From: Flavivirga jejuensis
Lineage (GTDB): Bacteria; Bacteroidota; Bacteroidia; Flavobacteriales; Flavobacteriaceae
Direction of reading: 5' to 3'
Length of the DNA: 64,000 nucleotides
NCBI RefSeq assembly: GCF_030540765.1
Contig: NZ_JAUOEL010000002.1
Location: 124,001-188,000 of the forward strand
Within the stretch, counting starts at the first letter, position 1, and each line of letters starts with the position of its first letter. Of the stretch, positions 4,517-62,064 are shown in pieces. The translations under genes were made by a program, and so were the position numbers. The notes beneath the pieces were generated by a model. It worked only from the letters and a program-made list of their open reading frames with translations, did not search any database and was not told where the DNA came from.

Positions 4517-4582
4517 TGCTTAAATAAAGAATTTACCAAAACCAAGAATCCTTTTCTTACAGTATATCTAAACTTATTAAAT

Positions 4583-4784
4583 AAAAAAATTCTTGAAACT
4601 GACTATCCCCGAGGCAAGCCATAGGGGTATTTCGCCAGTTTCATTTTGCCTTTATAGAGGCAAAAATCGAATTTTGTTATTTTTGCCTCACCCAGAACTG
4701 CCTTTTTTTGCAGTTCTGACCTCTCCAAAGGAGAGGTTAATTGGAAACCCCGACCCAAGGATCGGAGAATTTTTAGATTAAAGA
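4583..4784. repeat. Structured repeat R1, copy A (about 200 bp)
   Basis: First of four near-complete copies (others near 13034, 31912 and 45444). The ends pair with each other (AAAAATTCT at 4585 with AGAATTTTT at 4766). Inside lie GAAACTG/CAGTTTC, CCCC/GGGG, TTTTGCCT/AGGCAAAA, CAGAACTGC/GCAGTTCTG, ACCTCTCC/GGAGAGGT and CCGACCC/GGATCGG (one mismatch here). It occupies the gap between the beta-helix gene (ending 4864) and the sulfatase gene at 4377. The open frame inside it is a by-product of the repeat and also appears in copy D. It could be a non-autonomous mobile element, a folded RNA or a terminator. Confidence 0.85.
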
Positions 4785-12811: not shown

Positions 12812-12860
12812 CCTATTTTATAACATTTAATATCTATATTATTTACTTTTAATTTAAACA

Positions 12861-12895
12861 AAAAAATATTAAAACTGATAATCCCCGACAAGCCA
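12861..12895. repeat. R1 fragment (left end only)
   Basis: The left end of R1 (ATTAAAACTGATAATCCCCG, then ACAAGCC) is present without the rest of the element. At 12895/12896 it passes directly into a fragment of a sulfatase gene. The piece is degraded compared with copies A, C and D. Confidence 0.6.
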
Positions 12896-13031
12896 ACGGC
12901 ACCATTCTTAGTCTCCATGCAACGTGCCTCATCAAAACAGTTTCAAAACAGTTCCTTCTTGAGCCAGTTTAGAGCTATTTGGTGTTTCTAAATTGAAATC
13001 GTAAGTTTTTAAATCGAATGGTGGCTGGTCG
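12896..13031 (-). pseudogene. Fragment of an S1 sulfatase gene
   Basis: About 135 bp closely match positions 14569-14700 inside the intact sulfatase gene at 13355-14824. Shared stretches include ACGGCACC, CGTGCCTCATCAAAA, CCTTCTTGAGC, TTTGGTGTTTCTAA and TTTTTAAATCGAATGG. It corresponds to the part of the protein from the DDQ metal-binding motif to just before the formylglycine Cys. It carries a small internal duplication (CAGTTTCAAAACAGTT) and deletions, so it does not encode a protein. It sits between an R1 end fragment and full R1 copy B. It is either a recombination scar or the last piece of a lost tandem sulfatase gene. Confidence 0.75.
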
Positions 13032-13033
13032 TG

Positions 13034-13260
13034 AAATAAAGAATTTCTTGAAACTAACTACCCTCGGCAGAGCCATAGAGGTATTTCGCTGGTTTCACAC
13101 CAAATCAAGTTGCCCACAAGGTTTTGACCTAAAAAGGTCAAAAACCAAAATTCTGTATTTTTCCTCTCCCAGAACTGCCTTTTTTGGCAGTTCTGACCTC
13201 TCCAAAGGAGAAGTGACATCGGAAACCCCGACACAGAGTGTCGAGAAATTCTTTAGATTA
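13034..13260. repeat. Structured repeat R1, copy B (divergent)
   Basis: This is the most diverged of the four copies, and its changes keep base pairing. The end stem is AAAGAATTTCT with AGAAATTCTTT instead of AAAAATTCT/AGAATTTTT. The second hairpin is TTTTGACCT/AGGTCAAAA instead of TTTTGCCT/AGGCAAAA. The last is CGACAC/GTGTCG instead of CGACCC/GGGTCG. The CAGAACTGCC/GGCAGTTCTG hairpin is retained. It fills the gap between the sulfatase stop at 13355 and the sulfatase fragment. A 96-residue open frame crossing it is spurious. Confidence 0.8.
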
Positions 13261-13354
13261 ACACAACTAAGCCATTCCTATAGACAGGAAATCCATAGGC
13301 AGTGTTAAGTAATGGTTATAGTTATGGTTTATCTTTAATACTTTCCTATGATCA

Positions 13355-31835: not shown

Positions 31836-31911
31836 GCTACTTTATGTTCTTGTTTATATTAAAATATATAGTTAGTTATAATACAGAATTTCTTGAAACC
31901 AATTCTTTCGA

Positions 31912-32097
31912 ATAAAAAATTCTTGAAACTGACTATCCCCGAGGCAAGCCATAGGGGTATTTCGCCAGTTTCATTTTGCCTTTATAGAGACAAAAATCGA
32001 ATTTTGTTATTTTGCCTCACCCAGAACTGCAAAAAAAGGCAGTTCTGACCTCTCCATTGGAAACCCCGACCCAAGGGTCGGAGAATTTTTAGATTAA
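31912..32097. repeat. Structured repeat R1, copy C (inverted hairpin loop)
   Basis: This copy is nearly identical to A and D except for two changes. The hairpin CAGAACTGC-CTTTTTTT-GCAGTTCTG appears as CAGAACTGC-AAAAAAAG-GCAGTTCTG, its exact reverse complement. In addition, 14 bp (half of the ACCTCTCC/GGAGAGGT hairpin) are deleted. A lone left-end-like GAATTTCTTGAAACC lies just outside at 31886-31900. Its right end supplies the stop codon of the beta-propeller gene (32094-32096), so the element may have trimmed that gene's end. It fills most of the gap between that gene and the sugar porter gene. Confidence 0.85.
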
Positions 32098-33179
32098 TTT
32101 TTTAAAGGAATAACCATATTCCATGTTTTTGAACCGTTGCTAAAACCTCCAGGACCGTCCATGGTTGCGAAAAAAATGTGCGTTGGTTTTCCTTTTTCAA
32201 CAAAAACAAAAGGGCGTTCTAATTGTCCTTGTTTGATTGTTTTCCCATGATCCCATTTTACGAGTTTTGTGTAAGCTTTTGGGTTTTCATCAATAACCCA
32301 ATCGATTCCATTTTTAGAATGTGCTACAAGTCCGTCGCCCTTTCCTCCCGTAATTAGTCCTCTTTGGTCTTTTGCTATCATGTGATACCCATCATTATCG
32401 CTCCATAAATGCGGGTCTTCAATTTCACCAAAGCGTTCCATCGAAAATAATGGATCATCGCCTATTACTGTATATTTCCCATCGTACGATGGTGCTGTAG
32501 CAACACCAATACTCATATCGCTATGCGTTACACCATCTTCCTTATAGCTTCTACCTTTAAAAAGCAACACCACGGTCCCATCTTCTTTAACTAAAGGAGA
32601 CGGGTTAGAGGTTAAAAAACTATAATATGAATTTGGTTTTACATCTAAAATAGGTGCATCCAATCGTTTCCATGGACCGTTAAGACTTTTTGATGTAGCA
32701 ATCCCGATACGTTTTTTCCATCTGGCTGCAATACACCATTTGCTAGACAAATCGAATGCACTCACATTTTCTTGAGTAACATCTTCAAAAGGATGTGTTG
32801 TCCCCATATAATAGAGGATATACGTTTCTTTATATTTTACAATTTTAGGATTATGGCAGGATTTCCCATCCCAGAATTGAGTGCCTCTATCACCTAAAGC
32901 TAAATCCTTAAATTCATAAGGACCTTCTGGTGTGCTTGATACTGCATGAACAATTTCTGAAGCAATCATCCAACCTGGATGGAATGGCAAAAATTTAGGC
33001 CAACGCGATGCATACATGTGATATTTACCTGCTTCGCCTTTAATAACTGAGCTTCCCCAAACCCAATAATCTTCCATTTGTAAACCACCGTTTACTGGTG
33101 CTTCTTTTAAATCGTCAAAAATAGAATTCTGTGCACTGCACGTAACAAATCCAATAAAAAAAAGAATGAAGTATTTCAT
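32094..33179 (-). CDS. Secreted five-bladed beta-propeller glycoside hydrolase-like protein (GH43/GH117 type)
   Basis: The 361-residue protein has a signal peptide (ending VTCSAQ) and repeated propeller blades. Recognisable pieces are DYWVWGSSVIKGEAGKYHMYASRWP, GPYEFKDLAL, HNPKIVKYKETYILYYMG, RIGIATSKSLNGPWKRLD, NPSPLVKEDGTVVLLFKG, and EIEDPHLWSDNDGYHMIAKD, with acidic residues placed as in GH43, GH32 or GH117 enzymes. The exact family and catalytic trio are not assigned. It lies 15 bp downstream of a GH29 fucosidase gene, so the two form a unit and may act in sequence on one oligosaccharide. The final stop codon lies within repeat R1 copy C; a small C-terminal loss is possible. Confidence 0.8.
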   Translation of the reverse strand: MKYFILFFIGFVTCSAQNSIFDDLKEAPVNGGLQMEDYWVWGSSVIKGEAGKYHMYASRWPKFLPFHPGWMIASEIVHAVSSTPEGPYEFKDLALGDRGTQFWDGKSCHNPKIVKYKETYILYYMGTTHPFEDVTQENVSAFDLSSKWCIAARWKKRIGIATSKSLNGPWKRLDAPILDVKPNSYYSFLTSNPSPLVKEDGTVVLLFKGRSYKEDGVTHSDMSIGVATAPSYDGKYTVIGDDPLFSMERFGEIEDPHLWSDNDGYHMIAKDQRGLITGGKGDGLVAHSKNGIDWVIDENPKAYTKLVKWDHGKTIKQGQLERPFVFVEKGKPTHIFFATMDGPGGFSNGSKTWNMVIPLKN

Positions 33180-45170: not shown

Positions 45171-45445
45171 TAGTTTATTTTCTTTGTTAAAAACGAGTTC
45201 AATTGTGAGTTTTTAAAGTTCTGTAACCATAAATAGCTATAAAACAAAAGCATATAAAAGGTAACAAAAATGATATATTCACTACTGAAAATGTTCCTAT
45301 TGTTTTCTTGCCTATTAATTAGACCTTGCAAAATAGGTATTAATTCGCCACCTACAATGACCATTCCCAAACCAGCTGCACCTAATATTGAATCTTCTTC
45401 TGTTAAACCGCTAAAGGACAATACCATAATACAGTTGAAAACAAT
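45170..45445 (-). pseudogene. C-terminal remnant of a FucP-like MFS sugar transporter
   Basis: An 85-codon ORF (MVLSFSGLTEED...) is open in frame for six more codons (IVFNCI) before meeting repeat R1 copy D at about 45444. The remnant resembles the end of FucP-type L-fucose:proton symporters: FNCIMVLSFSGL recalls FNSIMFPTIFSLAIKGL, GLGMVIVGGELIPILQGLI matches the glycine-rich second-last helix region, and a last hydrophobic segment follows. The first roughly 340 residues are missing. The position between aldA and the mutarotase gene is natural for fucP. It is almost certainly non-functional as a transporter, though the ORF may still be translated and couple to the mutarotase gene. Confidence 0.72.
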
Positions 45446-45649
45446 AAAAAAATTCTTAAAACTGACTATCCCCGAGGCAAGCCATAGGGGTATTTCGCCA
45501 GTTTCATTTTGCCTTTATAGAGGCAAAAATCGAATTTTGTTATTTTGCCTCACCCAGAACTGCCTTTTTTTGCAGTTCTGACCTCTCCTCCAAAGGAGAG
45601 GTTAATTGGAAACCCCGACCCAAGGGTCGGAGAATTTTTAGATTAAAGA
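45444..45649. repeat. Structured repeat R1, copy D
   Basis: Near-identical to copy A, with the perfect CCGACCC/GGGTCGG hairpin and a slightly longer ACCTCTCC loop. It directly abuts the truncated 5' side of the fucP remnant. An open frame on the plus strand (45270-45581) repeats the same peptide as in copy A and is only a shadow of the element. Confidence 0.85.
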
Positions 45650-61699: not shown

Positions 61700-62064
61700 G
61701 AAATAACGCGAAGAATCTTTATAATTAATTTCTATAGATTCTTCAGTCGTACCTCCTTACCATTGACGTGTTTTATAAACAACTAACTTTCAACCACTTA
61801 TCATTCAGAGCGCAGCGAAGAATCTTTATAATTAATCTCTAAAGATTCTTCAGTCGTAAGCTTCGCTTATATCTTCAAACAAAATATATTTTGTTTTCGA
61901 TAGCCTACCATTGACGTGCTTTATAAACAACTAACTTTCAACTACTTGTCATTCAGAGCGCAGCGAAGAATCTTTATAATTAATCTCTAAAGATTCTTCA
62001 GTCGTAAGCTTCGCTTATATCTTCGAACAAAATATATTTTGTTTTCGATAGCCTTCTGAATGAC
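61700..62064. repeat. Tandem repeat R3 (148-bp period) with hairpins
   Basis: Units start CCATTGACGTG at 61760 and 61908, exactly 148 bp apart, with a partial unit before them. Each holds GAAGAATCTTTA pairing with TAAAGATTCTTC and the palindrome ACAAAATATATTTTGT. The last unit is enclosed by GTCATTCAGA (61949) and TCTGAATGAC (62055), inverted. GAGCGCAGCGAAGAATC is a sequence often seen in dispersed flavobacterial repeats. It fills much of the 738-bp gap between the PepSY gene and the DUF4198 gene. From 62065 to 62325 I see nothing coding. Confidence 0.8.

Follow-up and report, generated by a model that had tools for sequence, protein, structure and literature searches.

A hairpin-rich dispersed repeat of Flavivirga jejuensis, probably a satellite of an IS200-group element

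Copies, anatomy and neighborhood of the repeat

The window (the whole stretch of 64,000 nucleotides that was analysed) is part of contig C12 of a 6.02-Mb draft genome of Flavivirga jejuensis, and it contains four copies of a structured repeat, here called R1, at 4580-4781, 13035-13261, 31911-32097 and 45443-45646, all in + orientation and scoring 183-231 bits against a covariance model built from 24 elements. These copies start 1-3 bases off the positions given in the original prediction, and the model spans include a 3′ ATTAA which, according to the empty sites described below, is host target; the boundaries of the elements proper and of their parts are collected in Table 1. The predicted number of four copies is correct for the window, but not for the genome, in which BLAST with copy A returned 57 rows. 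We used the 40 strongest as places, the other rows being short self-complementary or end fragments, and the genome-wide covariance-model search that had been proposed together with the prediction found at least 88 matches in the same genome (E<=0.001; 150 of 2982 candidates scored).

Table 1. Parts and copies of R1 in the window. Strand - is the presumed active (tnpA-sense) strand; the sense of the original prediction is +. LE and RE, left and right end in tnpA orientation.
Feature	Position	Strand	Basis or remark
R1 copy A, element proper	4580..4776	-	model span 4580-4781; boundaries as in the empty-site comparisons for other copies
Host target TTTAAT (minus strand) adjoining copy A	4777..4782	-	sequence; empty-site rule and right flanks
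Copy A LE hairpin, CCCCGACCCAAGGATCGG on +	4748..4765	-	sequence, hand-given structure and end patterns of TnpA loci
Copy A RE hairpin, CCCCGAGGCAAGCCATAGGGG on +	4607..4627	-	sequence and structure
GAAACTG/CAGTTTC stem around copy A RE hairpin	4595-4601 with 4636-4642	-	sequence and structure
Copy A internal hairpin TTTTGCC..GGCAAAA	4644..4665	-	sequence and structure
Copy A two middle hairpins (4693-4718, 4719-4737), whalefall-1-like	4684..4739	-	24.2 bits; gathering score 37
R1 copy B, of another subfamily, with a stretch of 24 additional nt; middle whalefall-1-like, 26.3 bits	13035..13256	-	covariance model, Rfam
R1 copy C	31911..32092	-	CAGAACTG..CAGTTCTG hairpin in the opposite orientation to copies A and D; deletion of the CCTCTCC hairpin
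R1 copy D	45443..45641	-	sequence, covariance model
Possible decayed fifth R1 copy just before copy B	12856..13017	-	weak: 15.8 bits, E 0.56

Covariance-model matches to R1 are present in 11 of 12 genomes of the genus Flavivirga. A pattern scan of species genomes found at least 98 stretches, and among the 80 listed nearly all are from Flavobacteriaceae or Bacteroidetes; the genera among the matches listed are Flavivirga, Bizionia, Maribacter, Arenibacter, Lutibacter, Snuella, Algibacter, Aquimarina, Flaviramulus, Gramella and Moheibacter, together with metagenome-assembled genomes (MAGs), and a match in a Simkaniaceae MAG looks like chance. Plasmid and phage collections searched with one R1 element (L147) gave no match.

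Read along the plus strand, R1 begins with AATAAARAAWTTCTTGAAACNNACTAT, hairpin CCCCGAGGC..GCCATAGGGG, TATTTCGCNNGTTTCA and hairpin TTTTGRCC..GGYCAAAA, and continues through a middle module to GGAAACCCCGA..TCGGAGAATTTTTAG and then host ATTAAA; an end stem, the imperfect inverted repeat AAAGAATTTC/GAATTCTTT, is set in from the ends by a few bases. The middle module comes in exchangeable versions: type 1 elements, including the window copies, carry CACCCAGAACTGC..GCAGTTCTGACCTCTCC..GGAGAGGT, and type 2 elements carry GATTCCCGTTTTCACGGGAATGACA at the corresponding position. Half-matches in relatives do not flank a transposase; they belong to subfamilies whose middle hairpin is different. Among 111 elements that a pattern picked out of the loci retrieved, 23 are short forms that lack the middle module and measure 50-91 nt with five target bases counted in; a few of these 23 may be chance pairings of ends. 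Hairpin loops can contain additional palindromes, and the tips of the hairpins look like preferred sites at which other palindromes are exchanged in. The palindrome TCCCGATAGCTATCGGGA stands in place of the RE hairpin loop in three loci of Flavivirga aquimarina (L117, L113 and L174).

Directly beside copy C, a minus-strand ORF (32094-33179) terminates within the ATTAA target (window 32093-32097), so the insertion may have altered the end of this gene. The window also contains a 148-bp tandem duplication with 97% identity (61758-62053) and a 111-nt repeat in three copies (37339, 41723 and 45793), and on contigs C6 and C1 of the same genome a second dispersed repeat with inverted ends (GAGACTGTCTAAAAAGTGATGAACTTTG...) adjoins the R1 copies L007 and L013.

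Covariation of the hairpins and the match to whalefall-1

The three paired arm differences that had singled out copy B are present when read in the sequence (AAAGAATTTCT/AGAAATTCTTT, TTTTGACCT/AGGTCAAAA and CGACAC/GTGTCG); since relatives with the same arms exist in the same genome (e.g. L050 and L045), they are differences between subfamilies and not three fresh events. Covariation of the hairpins is nonetheless real and family-wide. Among 24 sequences, 19 of 43 pairs have changed on both sides compared to 10.6 on average after shuffling (0 of 500 shuffles reaching 19), and 90.5% of cells are paired compared to 33-51% with slid partners; these figures are a test of a chosen structure, because the structure was given by hand, RNAalifold having missed several helices. 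Among 95 distinct sequences, in an alignment fitted to the structure, 33 of 43 pairs have changed on both sides compared to 17.1 when shuffled, and 271 cells compared to 84. Folded as single-stranded DNA, copies A and B have z-scores of -7.0 and -5.7, with 0 of 200 shuffles as good.

Rfam at the gathering threshold found no match in the window, and whalefall-1 (RF01762) appeared when the threshold was relaxed; what matches is the two middle hairpins of R1 and the flanking GTGAGG. With the threshold lowered, RF01762 hit this pair of hairpins in 4 of 5 loci of one set (24.2-36.2 bits) and in 6 of 8 loci of another (30.5-36.6 bits), with no match in L085, L102 and L183; the gathering score was reached in 2 of 20 loci (L157 at 42.0 bits and L122 at 37.4 bits), L126 having been included in both the 5-locus relaxed search and the 20-locus gathering search. 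All 12 hits in the roughly 200 kb searched lie within R1 elements and on the tnpA strand, 10 of the 12 scoring 24.2-36.6 bits, below gathering, and the two window copies tested (A and B) being among these 10. Outside Flavivirga, the named isolates with matches are Arenibacter sp. P308M17 and Gramella sp. AN32, both below gathering. The statement that no named family fits is thus not upheld, as the middle hairpins match whalefall-1 and the ends are those of an IS200-type group of Flavobacteriaceae (see below). In R1 the whalefall-1 hairpins are an internal module of a larger mobile element, and the window copies remain below the gathering score.

Weinberg 2010 describes whalefall-1 as "certainly" RNA and reports it from whale-fall sequence only (PMC2864571). 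R1 could then bear a functional structured RNA (the whalefall-1 middle or the whole) that was spread by transposition and whose fold is kept by selection on the transcript, as the authors' rating, the strong covariation across genera, the confinement of whalefall-1 matches to one strand (12 of 12) and the wide retention of internal hairpins that are absent from TnpA-carrying elements would all suggest. Selection on one RNA strand should leave a trace, G-U being expected to be better tolerated than A-C. We nevertheless consider an RNA of this kind unlikely, because i) G·T and A·C mismatches are equally frequent in R1 overall (46:45 in a smaller alignment and 124:131 in 80 non-redundant elements), but 13:0 in a control of 11 tRNAs from the same loci; ii) loops are found inverted, the hairpin CAGAACTGCCTTTTTTTGCAGTTCTG occurring in both orientations in the F. 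jejuensis genome (10 T-loops and 12 A-loops, one copy listed twice), and the near-identical L001 and L008, which have opposite loop orientation, differing in 10 columns of which 8 are in the loop; and iii) the middle module is exchanged between types 1 and 2 and dispensed with in the short forms. Mismatches within the whalefall-1 module do lean to the whalefall-1 strand (49:36, p 0.19; 21:10 in the small alignment), as would be expected of an RNA, and this lean may mean that there is some selection there, whether as DNA or as RNA; but the ratio in the module differs from that of the tRNAs (p 0.0018), and the mismatch counts speak against selection acting strongly on one strand of the module.

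Template switching at inverted repeats leads to homogenisation of the arms and inversion of the spacer, as described in PMC8604942 and PMC8794818. The pairing in R1 is probably kept largely by DNA hairpin conversion. Where the original prediction left the choice between selection and the copying mechanism, the inverted loops and the equal mismatches favor copying over RNA selection, and selection for folding may have a share.

Target, ends and replication strand

Comparison with orthologous sites in 11 sister species reveals the state before insertion for four copies: R1 is absent from 11 of 11 sites at L022, from 11 of 11 at L028 (one of which carries another 121-nt sequence), from 11 of 11 at L021 (two of which align poorly), and from 10 of 11 at L023, where R1 is present in G009. 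The empty sites read N(A)ATTAA or nearly so, and the occupied site retains one ATTAA on the 3′ side; insertion of all four copies was precise, without target duplication. On the minus strand the insertion reads TTTAAT^element, and an A follows TTAA in 86 of 109 R1 right flanks. Elements of the IS200/IS605 type insert 3′ of a short fixed target, and it is just such a fixed, short and non-duplicated target that the four empty-site comparisons place 5′ of the R1 LE.

Y1 domains are present in 12 of 12 genomes of the genus, and one locus of Flavivirga aquimarina (L315) contains an intact IS200-group TnpA (NCBIfam NF033573, 129 bits vs a cut-off of 55) which also matches Pfam Y1_Tnp and solved TnpA chains including that of ISHp608, and whose gene is bracketed by R1-like ends, both LE and RE. 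A family-wide search at E<=1e-20 found TnpAs of this type in 17 of 299 genomes. The F. jejuensis genome gave no match at that threshold, and contains two truncated TnpA relics of 84 aa, each preceded by LE-like sequence. A profile of the R1 right end, which is the LE in tnpA orientation, gives a hit immediately 5′ of tnpA in 10 of the 29 loci scanned (E<0.01), and a profile of the R1 RE matches weakly in 3 of 29 TnpA loci (E 0.0025-0.015). By pattern, both ends could be found in 15 of 17 TnpA loci (2 of 17 being without an RE); all 15 start with TTTAAT, 14 end with TTCATT, the 15th end is a mis-hit, and 14 of the 15 elements are 534-584 nt long.

In tnpA orientation these IS200 elements read TTTAAT^CTAAAGAATTCC-hairpin ... 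GATACC-hairpin-GGTAGTTCATT^ or close variants thereof, and R1 reads TTTAAT^CTAAAGAATTCC-hairpin ... AAATACC-hairpin-GGATAGTNNGTTTCAAGAAATTCTTTATT^. The TnpA-only IS200-group elements (L315, L318, L319, L343-L346 and others) therefore share with R1 the target, the LE with its hairpin, and the core of a similar RE hairpin; R1 lacks tnpA and differs from them further by three additional hairpins, by its end stem and by an RE tip of TTTATT instead of TTCATT. The R1 RE tip (GTTTCAAGAAATTCTTTATT) was not found at any Y1 locus scanned, lines with 4-5 mismatches being taken as chance, so the exact TnpA partner of R1 may be another one. The original prediction named identity to a known IS end as an outcome that would tell against it, and this identity holds in part, for LE and target but not for the RE tip. 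R1 is present in 9 of 17 genomes with TnpA vs 21 of 282 without (p 4e-6, phylogeny ignored), leaving 8 genomes with TnpA only and 261 with neither.

Six genomes of the genus (G004, G005, G006, G007, G009 and G011) also contain ORFs of about 495-535 aa with a Y1_Tnp domain. At L335:379-1866 (-), Y1_Tnp is in frame with coproporphyrinogen III oxidase (HemF), which scores 446 bits vs 25.5 for Y1, and L341 is alike.

GC skew is linked to replication strand. In the F. jejuensis genome, R1 with the sense of the original prediction on the contig plus strand lies in regions of negative GC skew, a rule followed by 33 of 40 places (p 4e-5); these counts are not independent, as places share 20-kb regions, and by region the figure is 30 of 37. 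Gene strand as the cause of orientation found no comparable support among the same number of places (25 of 40, p 0.15). In G003 the orientation of R1 switches in blocks with GC skew, and 21 of 23 C1 places are opposed to it (these 23 being the C1 places listed among 48 matches in G003, with six listed places on C2 and C4 left out of the count); in G001, 9 of 11 places among the listed model matches and BLAST places oppose the skew, which is not significant by itself (p 0.065). From orientation and skew, it is the G-rich strand that is the tnpA strand of R1. We take this strand to be the lagging-strand template, for which the orientation bias is as expected. A preference of this kind is known in IS608 and ISDra2 (PMC6006769).

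Other enzymes would account for these observations less well. It is improbable, and distinctly more so than an RNA function, that R1 is a REP/REPIN-like repeat moved by a RAYT instead of an IS200 TnpA. REP/RAYT systems (TnpA-REP subclass 2.6, Bacteroidetes) are proposed to follow the same principle, a Y1 enzyme acting in trans on hairpins scattered over the genome, and for RAYTs of this subclass atypical hairpins are reported next to the gene, with further copies at other places of the genome (PMC6006769). RAYT-like genes are also present in F. jejuensis; but each of its three intact RAYT genes is part of a 743-bp unit whose palindromes are different, R1 is the longer repeat with the LE and target of an IS200-type element, and no R1 profile match lies beside the Y1 loci scanned in F. 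jejuensis and the genus except at L315, where the gene is an IS200 TnpA, and at L053, where the match is to an ordinary copy of R1. We rejected RAYT as the mobiliser of R1 because the palindromes at RAYT genes differ from R1. The three RAYT units themselves (C28:216.3k, 217.8k and C30:317k; L053 and L054) are about 99% identical and have CGCTAGCG palindromes at their ends.

We give next to no credence to the idea that R1 serves TnpB or IscB as a guide in trans, be it as an omega-RNA (OMEGA) or as an element of the HEARO type. Its relation to IS200/IS605 and its structured module, which is confined to one strand and has a fitting size, speak for the idea, but PF07282 (TnpB) was found in 0 of 12 genus genomes (a control was positive in 6 of 14), for which reason TnpB/omega RNA was rejected for Flavivirga, and the Rfam searches made gave no match to HEARO or a similar family. 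A classical MITE moved by a DDE transposase, which the imperfect inverted repeat formed by the ends might bring to mind, is equally implausible given the lack of target duplication in four empty-site comparisons, the replication-strand bias and the IS200-type ends.

R1 as a probable satellite of an IS200-group element

We conclude, with a probability of roughly 0.88, that R1 is a non-autonomous, PATE-like satellite of a Flavobacteriaceae IS200-group (IS200/IS605) element and is presumably mobilised in trans; the reading is based on precise insertion at TTTAAT without duplication, on ends homologous to those of intact TnpA elements, and on orientation by replication strand. The early guess of a miniature mobile element served by a foreign transposase is thereby strengthened, and to judge from sequence the transposase would be a Y1 (HUH) TnpA of the IS200/IS605 type acting on ssDNA. 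The PATEs of Haloquadratum, as described in PMC3119063, resemble R1 in having near-terminal palindromes related to an IS200/IS605 element and no target duplication, in being too short for a transposase, and in giving rise to terminal-only forms of about 50 bp by loss of the core; R1 differs from them in its inverted end stem (PATEs being defined in that description as without terminal inverted repeats), in its conserved and covarying internal hairpins, and in belonging to another phylum.

The satellite might work as follows. TnpA supplied in trans would bind both subterminal hairpins on ssDNA and cut after TTTAAT on the left and after TTTATT on the right; R1 would be released as a single-stranded circle and then inserted 3′ of another TTTAAT; and the enzyme of the F. 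jejuensis genome itself may have decayed or been supplied earlier. The extra stems (the end stem, the GAAAC/GTTTC stem and three internal hairpins, among which the middle hairpins presumably share this role) would make the single strand more compact and draw its two ends towards each other. Paired changes could come largely from template-switch conversion of hairpin arms, together with loop inversion, perhaps aided by selection for foldability, and not mainly from RNA selection.

On the simplest reading whalefall-1 is a module of the R1 mobile element, and it may be mobile DNA rather than an RNA gene. We wish to separate this from a bolder proposal, for and against which we see the odds as even: that whalefall-1, for all its support by covariation, is no RNA gene but the core of a widespread ssDNA mobile element of Flavobacteriaceae, in which replication-coupled hairpin conversion produces RNA-like covariation without RNA function, and that the family is new, a multi-branched IS200 satellite whose hairpin modules are swapped and inverted and which can be reduced to terminal-only forms about 45 nt long. 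In the open-licence literature we found no paper describing R1 or linking whalefall-1 to a mobile element. If the bolder proposal is true, covariation alone can mislead RNA discovery in the case of IS200-type satellites.

For R1, as a family of probable IS200 satellites, the target, the ends and the rule of strand are now described, and an orphan Rfam motif can be given a probable identity and placed in named members of the Flavobacteriaceae. It also provides a natural case of compensatory changes that can be explained by DNA hairpin conversion, and as such a caution for the discovery of RNAs by covariation.
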